Both the position numbers and the translations under genes were made by a program. A stretch of 33,988 nucleotides of DNA, taken from positions 1 through 33,988 of the forward strand of contig JAHEMN010000021.1 of the NCBI GenBank assembly GCA_024643645.1, given 5' to 3'. The DNA comes from Chitinophagaceae bacterium (GTDB taxonomy: Bacteria; Bacteroidota; Bacteroidia; Chitinophagales; Chitinophagaceae). Below are positions 24,717-32,222 of the stretch, one piece after another. Every line of letters starts with the position of its first letter. The stretch's first letter is position 1. The notes beneath the pieces are model-generated. The model was not told the origin of the DNA. It did no database searches and was given only the letters and a program-made list of their open reading frames with translations.

Positions 24717-26423
24717 ATGGAGTCATTATTATCTATAAATAATCTTTCCATTGATTTTCATTCAGGCACTACACTAACTCATGCATTAAAAAATGTATCA
24801 GTTACCATTAACCGTGGTGAGATAGTGGCACTTGTCGGAGAATCCGGTTCCGGTAAATCAATTACTGCACTTTCTATTTTACAATTACTACCAACACCAC
24901 CAGCCGAAATATCCTCCGGACAGATCTTCTTTTCTGAAGATGGTGAGCATTCTTTTGATTTATTAAAAAGAAATAGCAGTGAAATACAGAAGATCCGTGG
25001 TAATAAAATTGCCATGATCTTCCAGGAACCAATGACATCTCTCAACCCGGTATTGACCTGTGGCGATCAGGTAATTGAAGCAATTCTATTACATAATAAG
25101 ATCAGTAAGAAAGATGCAAAACAAAAAGCTATTGAATGGTTTGAAAAAGTAAAGCTGCCAAATGCAGTTGCATTACTAAACCGTTATCCGCATCAATTAA
25201 GTGGTGGACAAAAACAGCGGGTAATGATAGCAATGGCTATGTGCAGTGAACCTGCTTTACTTATTTGTGATGAACCTACAACAGCACTGGATGTTACCGT
25301 TCAAAAAACGATCCTTTTATTATTGAAGGAATTACAACAGCAATCCATTATGGGTATTATTTTTATTACCCATGACCTTGGAGTAGTTGCCGAAATTGCC
25401 GACAAGGCAGTTGTAATGTATAAGGGAGAAGTAGTGGAACAAAATTCTGTGACCGAGATATTCTCAAATCCCCAACACCCTTACACAAAAGCCTTATTGG
25501 CTTGCAGACCAGTAAATCATAAAAGAGGAGAAAGATTGCCAATAGTTTCTGATTTTATGGAAGAAAAGATTCATCAAAATGAATATGCTTTTGCAAATGA
25601 AAAAAAACATCATATCTCAGATGAATATATGCTGAAAGTTGAAAATCTTTCTGTCTGGTTTCCATCAAAGAAATCTCTTTTCGGCAAATCACAAGGATTT
25701 ACAAAAGCGGTCAATGATGTTAGTTTCAATTTATTTAAAGGAGAAACATTAGGATTAGTGGGTGAAAGCGGATGTGGTAAGACCACTTTGGGAAGAGCAT
25801 TGCTAAGATTAATTGAACCTACTGCAGGAAAAATAATTTATAACAATATTGACCTGACCGCCAAAAAAAGAGATGAGTTAAGATCCCTAAGAAAAGAGAT
25901 GCAGATCATTTTTCAAGACCCCTACTCGTCCCTTAATCCAAGGATCACTATCGGGTCTGCCATAGCTGAACCCATGAAAGTGCATGGTATGGGTTCATCT
26001 GAAAAAATAAGAAAGGAAAAAGTGAATGCCTTACTGGAAAAAGTTGATCTGAAACCAGAACATTTTAACCGCTACCCGCATGAATTCAGTGGAGGACAAA
26101 GGCAACGAATCGTTATTGCCAGAGCGTTAGCATTAAATCCTTCTTTCATTATTTGTGATGAATCAGTATCAGCTTTAGATGTTAGTGTTCAGGCCCAGGT
26201 ATTGAATCTGCTGAATGATCTTAAAAAAGAATTCGGGTTTACTACGATCTTTATTTCACATGATCTGTCTGTAGTACGATATATCAGTGATCGGATAATG
26301 GTGATGAACAATGGAAGTATTGAGGAATCAGGTGATGCTGATTCTGTTTATTATCATCCAAGTTCAGAATATACAAAAAAGCTGATCGCTTCTATACCTA
26401 AAGGAATAATTACAAATTCTTAA
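24717..26423 (+). CDS. Fused double-ATPase ABC transporter protein, oligopeptide/dipeptide type
   Basis: A 568-residue cytoplasmic ATPase with two complete nucleotide-binding domains in one chain, equivalent to DppD plus DppF (GsiA/YejF layout). Domain 1: Walker A GESGSGKS (41-48), signature LSGGQ (161-165), Walker B LLICDEP (181-187). Domain 2: Walker A GESGCGKT (349-356), signature FSGGQ (457-461), Walker B FIICDES (477-483). Each domain is followed by the oligopeptide-transporter tail ([12 protein letters not shown] at ~254-265 and a shorter [13 protein letters not shown]). No permease or binding-protein gene lies beside it, so its membrane partners must be encoded elsewhere. It overlaps the convergent TraB-family gene by 4 bp. 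Confidence 0.95.
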
Positions 26424-29400
26424 TAATCGTCTTCCTCATTATCTTTAAAAAAGTTTTTTGCACTCTTTCGCTGTGAATAGAGCAGTTTCTTTAACTCCAG
26501 CTTCAATTGATTCTCAATCGGTGTATCAGTTTTCAACCTTGTATCCAACAAGGCAGTGAATTTATTTTTATTTGTTTGAAAAGATGAAAAGATTGAAACA
26601 GTATTATCATTAGCAGTGGAATCATCAAATTCATACTGAAAAGGATCCTCCGGAACAAGACCAACTACTGCCAACTTCCAACTAACATCGTCTTTTTTAG
26701 CCTTGTATTTATAAAAGTAAATAAACCCATTTTTATTTTTATAAGATGTGCTGAGTTTGTCAATATAGACTATCGAATCCGGTTTATCATATAGTGCTTT
26801 GCCCAACAACTCACTTCTACCAAGATCAATATGATTATTATACTTTTTTGGAAAAATAGCTAACTTCTTTCTATCCTTTAGTTCAGTATATAATTCAAAC
26901 CGATAATCATCAAGGGCAGCAAAATAATTTAGAATTGTATCAGGGTATGGCTTTTTATTTTCGATCAATAATAACAGTGTAGTGTATTTTAACTGCTTGT
27001 CATTTGATCGTAACATTTGTTGTATCAATGATTGTACCGGAGGATTCGTTTCCCAAAATGGCAGTAAAAGTGTTGCATATAAACTCAGATCATCATTTCC
27101 TTTATCTTTTTCATCATCCTCATCTGAAAGTGAAGTTGAATAATTATCGCTTTTACTTTCTTCTGCTTTTTCTATCGATCTCTTTTTTTCAGCAATAGAT
27201 TGTTTCTTTAATTCTTGTTTGGCTTCAAGCAAAAATTTAGAAAAATAGGATTCATAATCTTTGGTATTTACAATACCGCTATCCACCATATTACCTAAAA
27301 TCCGCATAATGCTGCTTTTATAGTCTTCGAGATTCAGCAATGGAAGCAGATCCTTTATAATCGTTTTAGTTAGTTGTAATGAGTCCAGTAATTCATCCAA
27401 AAAACGGCCATTATCAAATAAATATCCTGATCTGTATTTTTTTAACAGATCATATGTTCCATAATCATTGTAGTCGCTTTCCGGAAAATCAAGGACAGGT
27501 GGTTCATTATTAATGATCTCTTTAAATGTGTTATATGCATAAGCTGTTCTTTGTTGCAATAAACTTTCAAGAACAGCATATTGCAACTCTATCGTATCAT
27601 CCAATGCATAGTAGATATCTTTCAGATAATTGGCAGCATCATTAGTTTTGATCTTATCCAGTTTATTGATAAATGCTTTCTTAGTTTCAAGATATTTCTT
27701 TTCATCCCAGTTAAGGCTGGCAATAGCTTTTTTCAAATCCGGAAGATCAGTTGAATCAATTTCAATATTCGCTATATACTTTACCGCCTTTTTATGTTGA
27801 ACAGAATCAGCACTAAAAAAATCACTGAAAAATAGATCTGTTTTTTTAATGAAAGGATTAACCCCTTTAAGTGATTCCTCAGGTGAAAAACTATTATAGA
27901 ATTCTTTGATAAAAGCACTGGGTTCTGTTAAGGTATCTGATTGTGTGATCAATGAAAAACCAACACCATTCTTATAAAAGGCCTTTGTCCAAAATGTTCT
28001 GCTACTTCCGGTATCTGAAACGATTTTTTCCCAAACTTTCATTTTATTTGGCAGCTCTGTTCTTTTCTTCATCCGAACGATCCATGAACTATCTGAATCA
28101 ATTAATGACTCATTATCTTTTTCCATTATTAAACTGTCCTTCGAATAATAATACCTCGGCGACTTATAAAACGATACAAATATTTTTTCGCCGGTACTAT
28201 CATTGCTGATCAATTTGGTCCGATAAATACCGTTTTCTAATAGATCTTTTTCAGTAACATTCTCATCTTCATTAAAATAACTGGTCGATTGCGGAATATT
28301 TAATTTTATCTTTTCTTCTACCGGATAAACAGGTGTTTTAACTGAAAAGTATAGTGAAGTATCATTTTGTTGCCTGGCATTACCATATACAAATGGTTTT
28401 ATCTCGAATGAATTCAAAAATTTTTCCATTTGAATGGATTCCTTCTTTCCATATGCTATTAAAGTATAGTAATGTGGCCCTTGTATTAAGAACCTTGTAT
28501 GAAAAACTCCCCCCTTCTTTTCTCTGTATTTTACATCTAATGCCGGATAGCCATTATAAATTACCTGTTTGCAGCTAATTTGTGAATCAATGAATTCAGA
28601 AGCCCTAAAACTTTCATCCATCAATTTCAGATCGAAAGAGTCTTCCTCTGCAAATCCATAATTATGGATACTTGATTTGATGATACGAAAAAAATTACCC
28701 GATGATTTATCTTCTGCCTCATATATCCAGCTGCCATCATTACCAATATAAGGTTCATGAGGCAGGTCTATTGCAAATCCCCCATAGGAGGGTGAGTATT
28801 TTTTCCAACTGTTATAAGATCCTGTTCCACTATTGTATTCTTTCAATCTAATACTGCCAAAGAATTTATCTGCTTCATCGCCATATTTTATATAATCACC
28901 GTTGCCACTCATTTTAAAAAAAATAATTTCAAAAGGCGTAACAAAAATATTATAGCGTTGCAGATCACCTCTGCGGGTTCTGCTTGTCAGATCAATTCCT
29001 TTGTAACCATTCTTGCTTATTGATTTCTTATCAATAATTTTTCCCGGAACATTCTCATATAAAAGACTATCAATTTTTTTTAATACCATATCCTCACTAT
29101 GATTCCACATCCAGGCGTTTGTCATTATCCTCGTGTACATATAATAACTGCCATTGGCCATATCAGCATATTGCCACTGATCTAGTGATTCATCATCAGA
29201 TATCTTATAAAAAGTGCCAGGTATATTAACTTTCAAAAAACTATCCCGTGAAGATTCAGTATGAAAAGAAACCAGAACCCTGATCCTGTCAATGATATCT
29301 TTTTGCCGGCTTGCCCTTTCACCCATTTTTATGGGTCTCATTTTGTATCCTTTGCTTCTTAATATTTCAATCACACCTCTATCACCCGGCAGGTGTGCCG

Positions 29401-30226
29401 CACCAACACCAACAAACAAAACTGAACCTGACTTTATGATGGAATCAATTGAACCAGCCTGGATCTCATTACGTTGATACAAAAATTTTTCATCAAAAGC
29501 TGCCGACACACTGTTGTATTTATTGATGGAATCCAATTGATCAAGATTGCCTGTACGGTAAGCTTCCTGTAATTTATCAGCAGAATAATCATCAGCCATA
29601 TCATCATAACTTCTTTCCTTCTTGTTCTTATCTTTTGCAGCATCTTTATATGCTTCTGCCATCAATCGCATACTTTCACCATAATCTTCTACACCGGCAA
29701 CTTTTTTACCCCACTTCTTTCCACATTGAAAAATATACATATCCAGATAAGTGTCTTCTTCAAAATCACTTGACTCATTTCCATAGCTCCGGTAAAGCAA
29801 ACTGTTTATTGTTGAAGGATTACTGTATAAAGAATTTTCAATCTTATTGTAGTATTCATAAAATTTAAGTGTGTTAATTGTGAGGTAGTCATTGGGTAAA
29901 GAATTAAGAGCATTGAACAAAGAAAAACTACTGCTTAACCGGCTTCCAACAATTTCATATTTATTCATATCCTCCTGCCAGGTTTCCGGATTTGTTTCTA
30001 ATGCAACCACCTGGGAATTTCTTAAGGCTATATAAAAAGAATCAGGAAGATTAAAAGCCAGTTTGCTACTTACATGCATAGTGCCGATGAGATAAGACGG
30101 CTTCTTAAGTCCATTACCTGTTATTTCCCAAAGCAGACTGGGATATTTCTTATTATTTATAACAGGCTGAGTCGCTGCTGAGAGAAAATAAAATGATATT
30201 AAGATTATAAAATAAATTCGTTTCAT
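26420..30226 (-). CDS. Very large TraB/GumN-family exported protein with C-terminal repeat domains
   Basis: A 1268-residue protein with signal peptide (~1-19). Residues ~28-300 form a TraB/GumN (Tiki-like) domain with all hallmark motifs: LIGTMHVSS (GTMH 48-51), VVALETNP (~73-80) and VGVGAAHLPGDRGV (272-285). Ordinary members end there at about 300 residues. The further ~970 residues contain three related blocks of ~140-155 residues (~320-462, ~476-612, ~626-782), with NGYKGIDL / NGYPALDV as a shared strand, a following 'F....YxxI/L' strand and an 'FFGSI' / 'FLNSF' / 'FYNSF' ending. A helical HEAT-like part (~805-1130) with an acidic linker (~1028-1046) and a basic/acidic tail follow. Tiki-like TraB domains can be metalloproteases; activity here is inference. 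Single gene, divergent from queA. Confidence 0.85.
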   Translation of the reverse strand: MKRIYFIILISFYFLSAATQPVINNKKYPSLLWEITGNGLKKPSYLIGTMHVSSKLAFNLPDSFYIALRNSQVVALETNPETWQEDMNKYEIVGSRLSSSFSLFNALNSLPNDYLTINTLKFYEYYNKIENSLYSNPSTINSLLYRSYGNESSDFEEDTYLDMYIFQCGKKWGKKVAGVEDYGESMRLMAEAYKDAAKDKNKKERSYDDMADDYSADKLQEAYRTGNLDQLDSINKYNSVSAAFDEKFLYQRNEIQAGSIDSIIKSGSVLFVGVGAAHLPGDRGVIEILRSKGYKMRPIKMGERASRQKDIIDRIRVLVSFHTESSRDSFLKVNIPGTFYKISDDESLDQWQYADMANGSYYMYTRIMTNAWMWNHSEDMVLKKIDSLLYENVPGKIIDKKSISKNGYKGIDLTSRTRRGDLQRYNIFVTPFEIIFFKMSGNGDYIKYGDEADKFFGSIRLKEYNSGTGSYNSWKKYSPSYGGFAIDLPHEPYIGNDGSWIYEAEDKSSGNFFRIIKSSIHNYGFAEEDSFDLKLMDESFRASEFIDSQISCKQVIYNGYPALDVKYREKKGGVFHTRFLIQGPHYYTLIAYGKKESIQMEKFLNSFEIKPFVYGNARQQNDTSLYFSVKTPVYPVEEKIKLNIPQSTSYFNEDENVTEKDLLENGIYRTKLISNDSTGEKIFVSFYKSPRYYYSKDSLIMEKDNESLIDSDSSWIVRMKKRTELPNKMKVWEKIVSDTGSSRTFWTKAFYKNGVGFSLITQSDTLTEPSAFIKEFYNSFSPEESLKGVNPFIKKTDLFFSDFFSADSVQHKKAVKYIANIEIDSTDLPDLKKAIASLNWDEKKYLETKKAFINKLDKIKTNDAANYLKDIYYALDDTIELQYAVLESLLQQRTAYAYNTFKEIINNEPPVLDFPESDYNDYGTYDLLKKYRSGYLFDNGRFLDELLDSLQLTKTIIKDLLPLLNLEDYKSSIMRILGNMVDSGIVNTKDYESYFSKFLLEAKQELKKQSIAEKKRSIEKAEESKSDNYSTSLSDEDDEKDKGNDDLSLYATLLLPFWETNPPVQSLIQQMLRSNDKQLKYTTLLLLIENKKPYPDTILNYFAALDDYRFELYTELKDRKKLAIFPKKYNNHIDLGRSELLGKALYDKPDSIVYIDKLSTSYKNKNGFIYFYKYKAKKDDVSWKLAVVGLVPEDPFQYEFDDSTANDNTVSIFSSFQTNKNKFTALLDTRLKTDTPIENQLKLELKKLLYSQRKSAKNFFKDNEEDDY

Positions 30227-30269
30227 AAGTCGATATACTGAGAAAAATGATCGGGTTTTAGAGAATTTA

Positions 30270-30277
30270 CAAATTTA
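30270..30277 (-). promoter_or_regulatory. -7 box for the TraB-family gene
   Basis: On the minus strand TAAATTTG is a perfect TAnnTTTG -7 box, placed 43 bp before the ATG at 30226. No TTG was found at the proper -33 distance, so only the -7 element is claimed. Confidence 0.35.
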
Positions 30278-30391
30278 AGATGCAATAGTGCATAAGAAAG
30301 CATAAAATATTTATGATTTTCAATGCTTTAGACAGCAACTTCTTGTGTATAAGAATATAAAAATTAAATAGGCTTTTGAGAATGAAAAGAT

Positions 30392-30399
30392 TACCTTTG
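30392..30399 (+). promoter_or_regulatory. -7 box for queA and its leader
   Basis: TACCTTTG matches TAnnTTTG perfectly. Transcription would begin near 30404-30406, immediately before the first leader hairpin. A TTTTG at 30374-30378 is too close (13 bp) for a standard -33 box. Confidence 0.45.
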
Positions 30400-30404
30400 C
30401 CAAC

Positions 30405-30515
30405 TTTAAATGCAGTAGCATTGACCAAACCCGGCGCCGTAAGGCCGGATTAGGAATATCCCGGCAACCCAGCCAGGTTTGTGTCAAGACTTAGATGATA
30501 TAAACCCAAATACAC
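30405..30515 (+). ncRNA. Structured queA 5' leader, candidate riboswitch resembling the SAM-I (S-box) clan
   Basis: The ~110 nt between the -7 box and queA fold well. An 11-bp helix pairs 30421-30431 (TTGACCAAACC) with 30476-30487 (GGTTTG, T bulge, GTCAA). Before it, AATGC-AGTA-GCATT (30409-30422) can form a small hairpin. Inside, two helices compete: CCG/GCC..GTAA..GGCCGG (30431-30448, GNRA-type loop) and GCCGGAT/ATCCCGGC (30444-30450 with 30458-30465). CCCGGCAACC (30460-30469), the preceding GGCG...A..GGCC.GAT pattern, an AACC/GGTT hairpin and the later GTGTCAAGAC...AGATGA segment resemble the core of S-box RNAs in the same order. The canonical S-box P1 and P4 are not found. QueA consumes SAM, so SAM sensing is plausible; a preQ1-type aptamer was not recognised. 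Structure is seen; ligand is inference. Confidence 0.55.
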
Positions 30516-31565
30516 ATGAAGCTTTCACAATTCCGTTTCGACCTCCCTTTAAACCTTATTGCACAAAATCCAACAAAACGAAGAGAAGATGCCCGAATGA
30601 TGGTTGTTAATCGTCATACCGGCGAGATCGAAAACAAGCATTTCCGTGATATCATCGATTATTTTGATGACAAGGATTGTTTTGTTGTAAATAACACCAA
30701 AGTATTTCCGGCAAGAATGTATGGTCGTAAAGAAAAAACTGGTGCAAAGATTGAAGTATTCCTTTTAAGGGAATTAAACAGACCTAACCGTTTATGGGAT
30801 GTGATCGTTGACCCGGCCAGAAAGATCCGTGTAGGAAATAAACTATATTTTGGTGATCAGGAAGATCTGGTTGCAGAAGTAATAGATAATACAACAAGCC
30901 GTGGTCGTACAATTCGTTTTCTTTGGGAAGGTTCAGAAGAAGAATTCAGGGCACAATTGGAAAAATTAGGAGAAACTCCGCTTCCGAAATATATTAAACG
31001 CAAACCAGACGAGGAAGATAAAGAGAGATACCAGACTGTATATGCGAAACATGAAGGTGCTGTTGCAGCTCCAACTGCCGGTCTTCATTTTAGCCGGGAG
31101 TTGATCAAACGATTAGAAATAAAAGGGATTCGTTTTGCAGAAGTAACATTGCATACCGGTCTTGGCACTTTCCGTCCGATTGAAGTTGAAGATCTCAGTA
31201 AACATAAAATGGATGCTGAGTATTATCAAATTGATGAAAATGCTTGCAAAATAGTAAACCGTGCAAAAGAATATGGTCATCGTATCTGCTCTGTAGGTAC
31301 AACAACCATGAGAGCAATGGAATCTTCTTTTACCGCAAAGAAATTATTAAAACCTTCTGAAGGCTGGACAAATATGTTCATTCATCCTCCTTATGAGTTT
31401 AATATAGCAGATTCATTAATCACCAATTTTCATTTGCCGAAAACTAGTTTACTGATCATGACCTGTGCATTTGCAGGATATGAACTAACTATGGAAGCTT
31501 ATAAGAAAGCTATTAAAGATAAATATCGCTTCTTCAGTTATGGAGATGCTCTATTAGTTATCTAA
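30516..31565 (+). CDS. queA: S-adenosylmethionine:tRNA ribosyltransferase-isomerase QueA
   Basis: A 349-residue enzyme that moves the ribosyl part of SAM onto 7-aminomethyl-7-deazaguanine in tRNA, giving epoxyqueuosine. Family blocks: [25 protein letters not shown] (~7-31), [29 protein letters not shown] (~56-84), [14 protein letters not shown] (~185-198), [17 protein letters not shown] (~211-227), [10 protein letters not shown] (~264-273) and the C-terminal [11 protein letters not shown]. Length is normal. ATG at 30516 is the first codon of the conserved N-terminus and follows the structured leader by about 28 nt. No other queuosine gene lies nearby. A bidirectional terminator separates it from the convergent DsbA-like gene. 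Confidence 0.97.
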
Positions 31566-31586
31566 AACTATTTAGTAAAGGAATTA

Positions 31587-31620
31587 AAAAAAGCCCCGCA
31601 TTGCGAGGCTTTTCTTTTTT
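31587..31620. terminator. Bidirectional terminator between queA and the DsbA-like gene
   Basis: AAGCC-c-CGC (31591-31599), ATT loop and GCG-a-GGCTT (31603-31611) form a stem with one C.A mismatch, flanked by an A-run on the left and TTTTCTTTTTT on the right. This layout terminates transcripts from both sides. Confidence 0.85.
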
Positions 31621-31631
31621 ATTAAACTTAT

Positions 31632-32222
31632 TTAAGCTTTTTGTTTTTTCTTAGGTGCTGCTTTTTTTGCCTTGGCCTTGGATTTAGTTTTCTTTAATGC
31701 TGCTTCTATCGCTGCACTAAGATTTGCAAATGTTGGTTTACCACTAACCATTTCATCATTTACAAAAAAAGCAGGAATATCTTTTACACCTCGGTTCCTT
31801 CCTTCTTTAATATCATCCTGTACCTGCCAGCCATAAACTCCGTTTACCAATTCATCAAGGAATTTTTTATTGTTTACACCAGCCTCTTTACTATATAATT
31901 TTAAACTGGTAGTACCAAGATTTCTACGATTAGCAAATAGTACATTGTGCATCTCCCAAAACTTCCCTTCCTGTCCGGCAGCTACAGCAGATTCACTTGC
32001 TTTTAAGCTGCGTTGATGTATCAGCGTTAATGGGAAGTGCCTGAACTGAAACCTGATCTTTCCTTCATAAGCTTCAAGCAATTGCTTTACTATCTCATTT
32101 ACTTTGGCACACTCTTCACTCTCATATTCACCAAACTCAATAAGGGTGACCGGGGCATTAATATCCCCAACAAACATTTCCTCTGGTTCAATGATAATAA
32201 CATCATCTTTTTTAAACGCCAT
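31632..32222 (-). CDS. DsbA-family thioredoxin-fold protein with SEEC site and Lys-rich tail
   Basis: A 196-residue thioredoxin-fold protein of the DsbA/FrnE (Thioredoxin_4) group. The fold is clear: GDINAPVTLIEFGEYESEECAKV (~19-41), FRHFPLTLIHQRSLKASESAVAAGQEGKFWEMHNVLF (~60-96) and GVKDIPAFFVNDEMVSG with the cis-Pro at 150. The usual CxxC becomes S35-E-E-C38, so only one of the two active-site cysteines remains. There is no signal peptide, so it should stay in the cytoplasm. The last ~20 residues (~177-196) contain 11 lysines, like histone H1-type tails, and may bind nucleic acid or acidic partners. It cannot form the usual disulfide; glutathione- or peroxidase-type chemistry, or no redox role, is possible. 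Confidence 0.88.
   Translation of the reverse strand: MAFKKDDVIIIEPEEMFVGDINAPVTLIEFGEYESEECAKVNEIVKQLLEAYEGKIRFQFRHFPLTLIHQRSLKASESAVAAGQEGKFWEMHNVLFANRRNLGTTSLKLYSKEAGVNNKKFLDELVNGVYGWQVQDDIKEGRNRGVKDIPAFFVNDEMVSGKPTFANLSAAIEAALKKTKSKAKAKKAAPKKKQKA

Follow-up and report, generated by a model that had tools for sequence, protein, structure and literature searches.

What does the RNA leader in front of queA do in this member of the Chitinophagaceae? QueA follows TGT in the queuosine pathway, and its substrate is tRNA with a GUN anticodon whose G34 position already holds preQ1. In the window, by which we mean the whole 33,988-nt stretch of DNA analysed, the gene 3' of the leader is queA (30516–31565, plus strand). 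It encodes a 349-aa SAM:tRNA ribosyltransferase-isomerase, identified by NF001140 (462 bits, cut-off 324) and TIGR00113 (410 bits, cut-off 267), with 1yy3, 1vky and 1wdi as relatives in the PDB. A preliminary description of the leader had reported competing helices and proposed kinship with the SAM-I clan of riboswitches. Here we ask whether these helices are conserved, which known RNAs they resemble, and how they may bear on the queA start codon.

Upstream of the leader, a TAnnTTTG-type element lies at 30392–30399 (plus strand). Most relatives examined have a similar TA(N)2TT(T/C)G at the corresponding position, and we take the element to represent the Bacteroidota -7 promoter consensus; the queA transcript is expected to start shortly 3' of it. 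A leader peptide was considered and dropped because the 23-codon ORF from 30382, found by eye, begins 5' of this inferred promoter element. Further upstream, a 1268-aa ORF (26420–30226, minus strand) runs divergently from queA and has no NCBIfam match at E ≤ 0.001.

Architecture and conservation of the leader

The leader is organized around a long-range helix, P1, in which the 5' strand TTGACCAAACC (30421–30431) pairs with the 3' strand GGTTTGTGTCAA (GGTTTG-T-GTCAA, 30476–30487) over 11 bp, with U30482 bulged. The 5' strand is supported by covariation, and the 3' strand, which acts as the candidate switch strand, by the family alignment and by alternative partners in the predicted folds. Many relatives have a P1 that continues outward. 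Columns 4–7 of the family alignment face columns 156–159, where all four pairs are double-changed and 74.8% of cells are paired. By this alignment AGT (30414–30416) of the window, on the 5' side of the outer extension, can face ACT (30489–30491), whereas the window's outer stretch adopts local AATGC/GCATT pairing in the predicted fold instead.

The constant part of the window leader is P2 (30431–30448), a putative operator formed by the five-pair hairpin CCGGC-GCCGUAAG-GCCGG. Its loop, G-CCGUAA-G, displays the hexaloop CCGUAA at 30437–30442. The GCCGG arm (30444–30448) is common to two helices, pairing with CCGGC at 30431–30435 in P2 and with CCGGC at 30461–30465 in P3 (30444–30465); P2 and P3 are thus mutually exclusive alternatives. 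The window also contains CCCGGCAACC at 30460–30469 and two copies of AAACC, at 30427–30431 and, just before the start codon, at 30502–30506. The preliminary description had counted the latter copy among the partners of GGTTT in the P1 3' strand, and this third pairing is longer than was noted, joining GGTTTGTGTCA (30476–30486) to TGATATAAACC (30496–30506). This anti-P1 strand pairs in the fold with P2 imposed and is kept in L002, L003 and L069. In addition, TGTGT (30480–30484) is able to pair with ACACA (30512–30516), including the A of the AUG, within ACACATG (30512–30518), a possible masking site that takes in the queA AUG (30516–30518).

The predicted fold is unusually stable, with MFE z-scores of -3.5 for 30405–30520 and -4.0 for 30415–30490, and none of 200 shuffles was as stable. 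A non-redundant set of 84 leaders served for counts of the loop, the P2 closing pair and P3. The octaloop GCCGTAAG (GCCGUAAG in the window sequence) is present in 81 of them. C-G closes P2 in 53 leaders and U-A does so in 31; L129 has A-U. P3 with at least five Watson-Crick pairs can form in 46/84 leaders versus 17.8 expected from mononucleotide shuffles of the downstream sequence; in L090, for example, its partners are ACCGGGGATTG and TAATCTCCGGT.

Covariation in P1 was assessed on two alignments. When 23 leaders were aligned with plain MAFFT, RNAalifold recovered the core hairpin only, because P1 shifts register among them, and a model-guided alignment was therefore used. In this alignment 86.0% of P1 cells pair, changes on both sides are found in 16 of 21 pairs, and double-changed cells number 214 versus 71 in shuffles (0/500 as high); pairing is down to 21–43% once the partner strand is displaced by 1–3 columns. 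Since a model-guided alignment is biased towards its own structure, figures from a plain MAFFT alignment of 19 genus leaders are given alongside, and they agree in part. Here 82.0% of P1 cells are paired, with 18 double-changed cells versus 6.8 and a covariation score of 0.132 versus 0.078 (each 0/500 as high); double-changed pairs number 5 versus 3.9 (139/500 as high) and further pair types 14 versus 12.2 (73/500 as high). The preliminary description had named a lack of conservation or covariation among relatives beforehand as refuting. Both were found, and its 11-bp helix, with compensatory changes in relatives, and its two exclusive inner helices are upheld.

Its assignment to a riboswitch class, in contrast, fails. 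In an all-Rfam cmscan of 29800–31700 at E ≤ 10, no riboswitch model, SAM and preQ1 included, gave a row in the leader, and mir-551 (E 0.54) was the only row across it. The window shares CCCGGCAACC with the SAM-I/SAM-IV clan as a likeness, whereas CCGGCAACC, the core on which an S-box-like order of elements was proposed, is found in 1 of 84 leaders. On these grounds both the SAM and the preQ1 riboswitch were rejected as candidates, and with them kinship to the SAM-I clan.

The leader is very likely a real, conserved, cis-regulatory RNA. A DNA search of 38 genomes matched it in its own genome and in 22 others of the genus, three of them weakly (E 0.02–0.03), and all 23 loci precede queA, with QueA proteins 87–100% identical. 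In 15 genomes representing the order's other families the best match had E 0.003, and queA was present in none of the seven loci fetched at matches of this kind (L021, L025–L030). A covariance model built from 19 genus leaders matched 42/42 genus genomes, at one place each except for a weak second match in G019, and 52/394 family genomes, representing 19 of 101 genera. A second model, built from 85 matches, recovered 44/195 family genomes (29 of 101 genera) and, across the phylum, 6/395 genomes, five of them in the family and the sixth (G1040) not at queA. The core pattern ACCNRRCCCGGYGCCGTAAGRCCGG was found at 50 places in genome_contigs, every one on the queA strand and 51–166 nt upstream of queA. 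The records are titled Bacteroidetes, Bacteroidota, Chitinophagaceae, Chitinophagales, Sphingobacteriales and Terrimonas, and twice Sphingomonadales. Matches away from queA were set aside, namely the second match in G019 (L077), a pattern match in G366 (L038, L080) and the match in G1040 (L130, L156).

CYGUAA hairpins in other queA leaders

The loop is also found in leaders that the covariance models do not match. Twenty-three family genomes were picked from those without a model match, and inspection of their queA upstream regions by eye disclosed a CYGTAA element in 17 and none in six; the element is missing upstream of queA in two genomes that belong to a different family within the order. 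Many of the family leaders contain TCATG-CCGTAA-CATGA, by itself or with another CCGTAA hairpin 3' of it. The corresponding 16-mer, TCATGCCGTAACATGA, occurs once each in 27 of 98 family genomes, at queA in all 27, and its reversed control gave 0 matches. Six leaders (L108, L128, L129, L131, L144, L145) carry the TCATG hairpin together with a window-type hairpin, which connects the two forms. In several leaders the hairpin takes in the queA AUG itself, as CCGTAA hairpins in L169, L172, L230, L232, L252, L253 and L254 and as CATATC-CTGTAA-GATATG in L176 and L179. Separately, CTCATGACATGAG in L005 and L047 lies over a two-codon ORF (ATG ACA TGA), ~70 nt 5' of the start codon at which queA begins in relatives.

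At class level, QueA was found in 98/99 genomes, and a second QueA-like protein (34–41% identical, open frame of ~390–500 aa) in 32 of the 99. From the 98 QueA-bearing genomes we picked 40 queA upstream regions, in most cases one or two from a family and largely from among the higher-scoring matches. With stem ≥ 4, CYGUAA hexaloop hairpins are present in 16/40 and the next hexaloop in 3/40, and 24 regions have no CYGUAA hairpin; with stem ≥ 5 the figures are 13/40 for CYGUAA and 2/40 for the next hexaloop. Dinucleotide shuffles of these 40 regions yielded 0 CYGUAA hairpins at a stem of at least 5 in 100 rounds. Among class queA leaders the stems vary and the loop is constant, and some are bare hairpins of 14–22 nt (28 nt in L216) with no other conserved part seen. 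The loop is CCGUAA in 12 of the 16 class-set hairpins and in 66 of 69 hairpins of the leader clusters; CUGUAA is found in L176, L179, L191, L197, L204 and L221. The clusters number 75 (60 with a hairpin and 15 without under the stem rule), and many of their loci were fetched by the motif itself, so that they give no frequency estimate.

Hairpins of this type were also counted away from queA. Outside queA leaders, eight CYGUAA hairpins with a stem of at least 5 were found in 1.34 Mb of fetched DNA, a figure that counts both strands and includes overlapping loci more than once, and seven of the eight form one array (L247). Across the 99 class genomes the pattern AATCCYGTAAGATT matched 21 times, in 13 cases at queA and in eight elsewhere, versus once for the reversed control. 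On the sense strand of tgt loci from 25 genomes, 0/25 carry a CYGUAA-type hairpin, and in this comparison the hairpin is therefore private to queA.

Two further loci have features of their own. The array in L247 (492–795; G1155:C2, ~320791–321094) comprises seven CCGTAA-loop hairpins in an intergenic stretch of a locus without queA; four are copies of GAAGCCCCGTAAGGCTTC, 60–90 nt apart, and three are relatives, and the array is flanked by the end of one ORF and by a second ORF that resembles, by eye, a transposase. In L241 (~700–800, a minus-strand match in G1086:C48), AATCCCGTAAGATT and GGAAGTCCCGTAAGGTTTCC are followed by a terminator-like hairpin, and this stretch, downstream of an 85-aa ORF, is maybe a small RNA.

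Predicted effect on the queA start region

The preliminary description had suggested a switch-like masking of the translation start. This holds insofar as the exclusive helices can occupy the start region. In its free fold the window adopts P1 and P3 as a rod. Forcing P2 costs 0.5 kcal/mol and cuts the expected number of pairs joining the sequences on either side of P2 from 6.6 to 1.3; 30476–30486 is then predicted to pair with 30496–30506. Masking of the AUG itself is not predicted for the window, where forcing P2 changes AUG access from 0.52 to 0.56, and only the stretch from -25 to +9 becomes less accessible (0.63 to 0.54).

Forced-P2 folding was extended to 75 of the 84 leaders, at a median cost of 1.7 kcal/mol. 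AUG access changed by more than 0.1 downwards in 35 leaders and upwards in 0; it was not reduced by more than 0.1 in the other 40, the window among them. Access of the -25 to +9 stretch fell in 13 and rose in 2. A complementary analysis compared duplexes between the stretch 15–75 nt before the AUG and the leader's own or a permuted start context, using 74 of the 84 leaders. Own-context duplexes averaged -7.10 versus -6.07 kcal/mol (sd 0.32), and 6 of 5000 permutations were as good, for 29 start contexts to which the leaders were collapsed and with relatedness left in the permutations. Examples include TCATGAG/CTCATGA (L004), TGTGTCA/TGACACA (L015) and ATGCGTT/AACGCAT (L013), and the P1 3' strand is absent from the best duplex of some leaders. 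This comparison is what points to ACACATG as a possible masking site, which is not the predicted outcome for the window with P2 forced. In L012 (G005), GTGTC of the P1 3' strand has a potential partner in a GACAC that precedes TTTTTT. This looks like a terminator and may act on transcription rather than by masking the start.

A proposed translational operator and its alternatives

The conserved loop resembles the target of the enzyme encoded downstream. The window genome gave 30 tRNA matches. The anticodon loop reads CUGUAAA in tRNA-Tyr, CUGUCAC in tRNA-Asp and UUGUGGU in tRNA-His, and tRNA-Asn is not among the matches. CUGUAA equals positions 32–37, the first six loop bases, of tRNA-Tyr, which TGT and then QueA act on, and CCGUAA differs from it at U33. 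The hexaloop has 6 nt (8 in the window) versus 7 in a tRNA anticodon loop.

A protein operator read by QueA appears to be the best account of these leaders, because the element is small, sometimes lies in the AUG, is tied to queA and resembles QueA's tRNA target. We therefore propose, tentatively and with a little less than an even chance of being right, that the queA leader is a translational operator which mimics the Q-tRNA anticodon loop, is bound by QueA and through this binding shifts towards a fold in which the start region is occupied. Translational control through an occupied start region is likely on its own. Binding by a protein, and repression by that binding, are what we infer, and QueA is more likely as the binder than any single rival.

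In such a mechanism, the CYGUAA hairpin would be bound by a pathway enzyme that reads GUN loops, most likely QueA and less likely TGT, and QueA would bind it when in excess over its tRNA substrate. In the simplest leaders, with the AUG within the hairpin stem, the binder would block initiation directly. In the window, without binder, the P1–P3 rod would leave the start region open; a binder capturing P2 would break P3 and loosen P1, and the freed 3' strand of P1 (30476–30486) might then pair with 30496–30506 or with ACACA at the AUG and lower translation. Several observations weigh against the operator account. The common loop CCGUAA has C at the U33 position, and CUGUAA is found in only some leaders, six of which are named above; 24/40 class upstream regions and, by eye, 6/23 family leaders have no hairpin; 8/21 AATCCYGTAAGATT matches, like the L247 array, are not at queA; the loop length departs from the 7 nt of a tRNA anticodon loop; and in 40 of 75 leaders, the window included, forced P2 does not reduce AUG access by more than 0.1.

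The binder could instead be TGT, holding the loop as a non-reacting decoy and so coupling queA translation to free TGT. TGT recognises hairpins that carry UGU in the loop, and its classic minimal substrate is the 17-nt anticodon hairpin of tRNA-Tyr (PMC10103133). The CUGUAA leaders contain this UGU, and TGT was found in 25/26 genomes tested. Against this stand the commonest loop, CCGUAA, which lacks UGU (66/69 cluster hairpins and 12/16 of the class set), the genome G1151, which has a CUGUAA leader (L197) and no TGT found in its assembly, and the tgt loci, none of whose 25 members carries the hairpin; TGT as binder thus seems unlikely. We judge a metabolite riboswitch for preQ1, SAM or another ligand to be quite unlikely. 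P1 and P2, with the near-invariant octaloop (81/84) and the recurrent P1 bulge, could form its pocket, and both the alternation of rod and hairpin and the start-region pairing would suit it, but no Rfam riboswitch matched. Moreover, an S-box-like pocket would not fit, because the conserved element recurs in other class families as bare hairpins of 14–22 nt (28 nt in L216), too small to leave much pocket room.

Pairing of the loop in trans with UUACRG of a small RNA or a tRNA loop would fit the C/U alternation at one loop position, as a G partner pairs with both; a conserved loop on freely varying stems is equally expected of a protein site, and we give pairing in trans a slim chance. A very slim one attaches to the idea that the mRNA itself is a pathway substrate, in which TGT would put preQ1 into the G of the CUGUAA loop, QueA would bind or modify it, queA translation would read pathway flux and CCGUAA would be an unmodifiable decoy. 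The slimmest chance of all goes to a leader whose structure is passive, or to a small RNA in its own right. Rfam does type RF03093, a queA-associated motif discussed below, as 'Gene; sRNA', but all 50 pattern places lie on the queA strand upstream of queA, leaders pair with their own start context better than with permuted ones, and the AUG is inside the hairpin in nine fetched loci.

Comparison with known systems

RF03093, the queA RNA, is an orphan Rfam motif of 59 positions that precedes queA in members of the window's bacterial family, and reportedly comes from Weinberg et al. 2017. The two share a site just upstream of queA and the CCGUAA loop, which is that of the first RF03093 hairpin and, in L163 and L164, of the second one too. 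They differ in that the first hairpin of RF03093 is UUCAUG-CCGUAA-CAUGAA, which the window lacks, whereas the window has one P1-enclosed hairpin with the octaloop G-CCGUAA-G. The RF03093 model (gathering 52.6 bits) gave no row for the window at E ≤ 10, and 0/19 other same-genus loci scored at gathering. Gathering was reached in L159, L163, L164, L231 and L234 (L164 and L231 are one genome), with L157 and L236 below it. In one scan, 12 of the 19 loci covered had no row at E ≤ 0.05, L108, L128 and L144 among those without one, and eleven class upstream regions gave no match at E ≤ 0.5. Judged from sequence, the window leader is outside RF03093 by its model and a divergent relative by position, loop and intermediates. 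The Rfam output gives no mechanism for RF03093. The terms 'queA RNA', 'queA motif' and 'RF03093' occur in no paper of the literature searched, whose scope leaves out most subscription papers, and no autoregulation of queA appears in the titles and abstract openings of the literature matches listed. With the operator account, an orphan Rfam motif gains a concrete, testable mechanism, and RF03093 is widened from one form to a set of shared-loop queA leaders in many class families.

The preQ1 riboswitches (I–III) likewise control queuosine genes from an mRNA leader. The window differs from them in giving no match to their models, in having a hairpin loop as its conserved part and in the gene controlled, queA. 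If the operator account is true, queuosine synthesis would have a control point other than the preQ1 riboswitch. Bacteroidota rarely use Shine-Dalgarno sites, and the account, if true, would also imply start-codon masking without such a site.

The E. coli thrS operator mimics an anticodon. In yeast, a HisRS-type tRNA synthetase is bound to its own mRNA at a putative anticodon mimic and autoregulated (PMC6542539). These two systems and the queA account have in common that an anticodon-like site in the own mRNA of a tRNA-reading enzyme limits translation; the queA account differs in that the enzyme modifies tRNA and its binding is predicted. If true, a tRNA modification enzyme would control itself by anticodon mimicry, like some tRNA synthetases.
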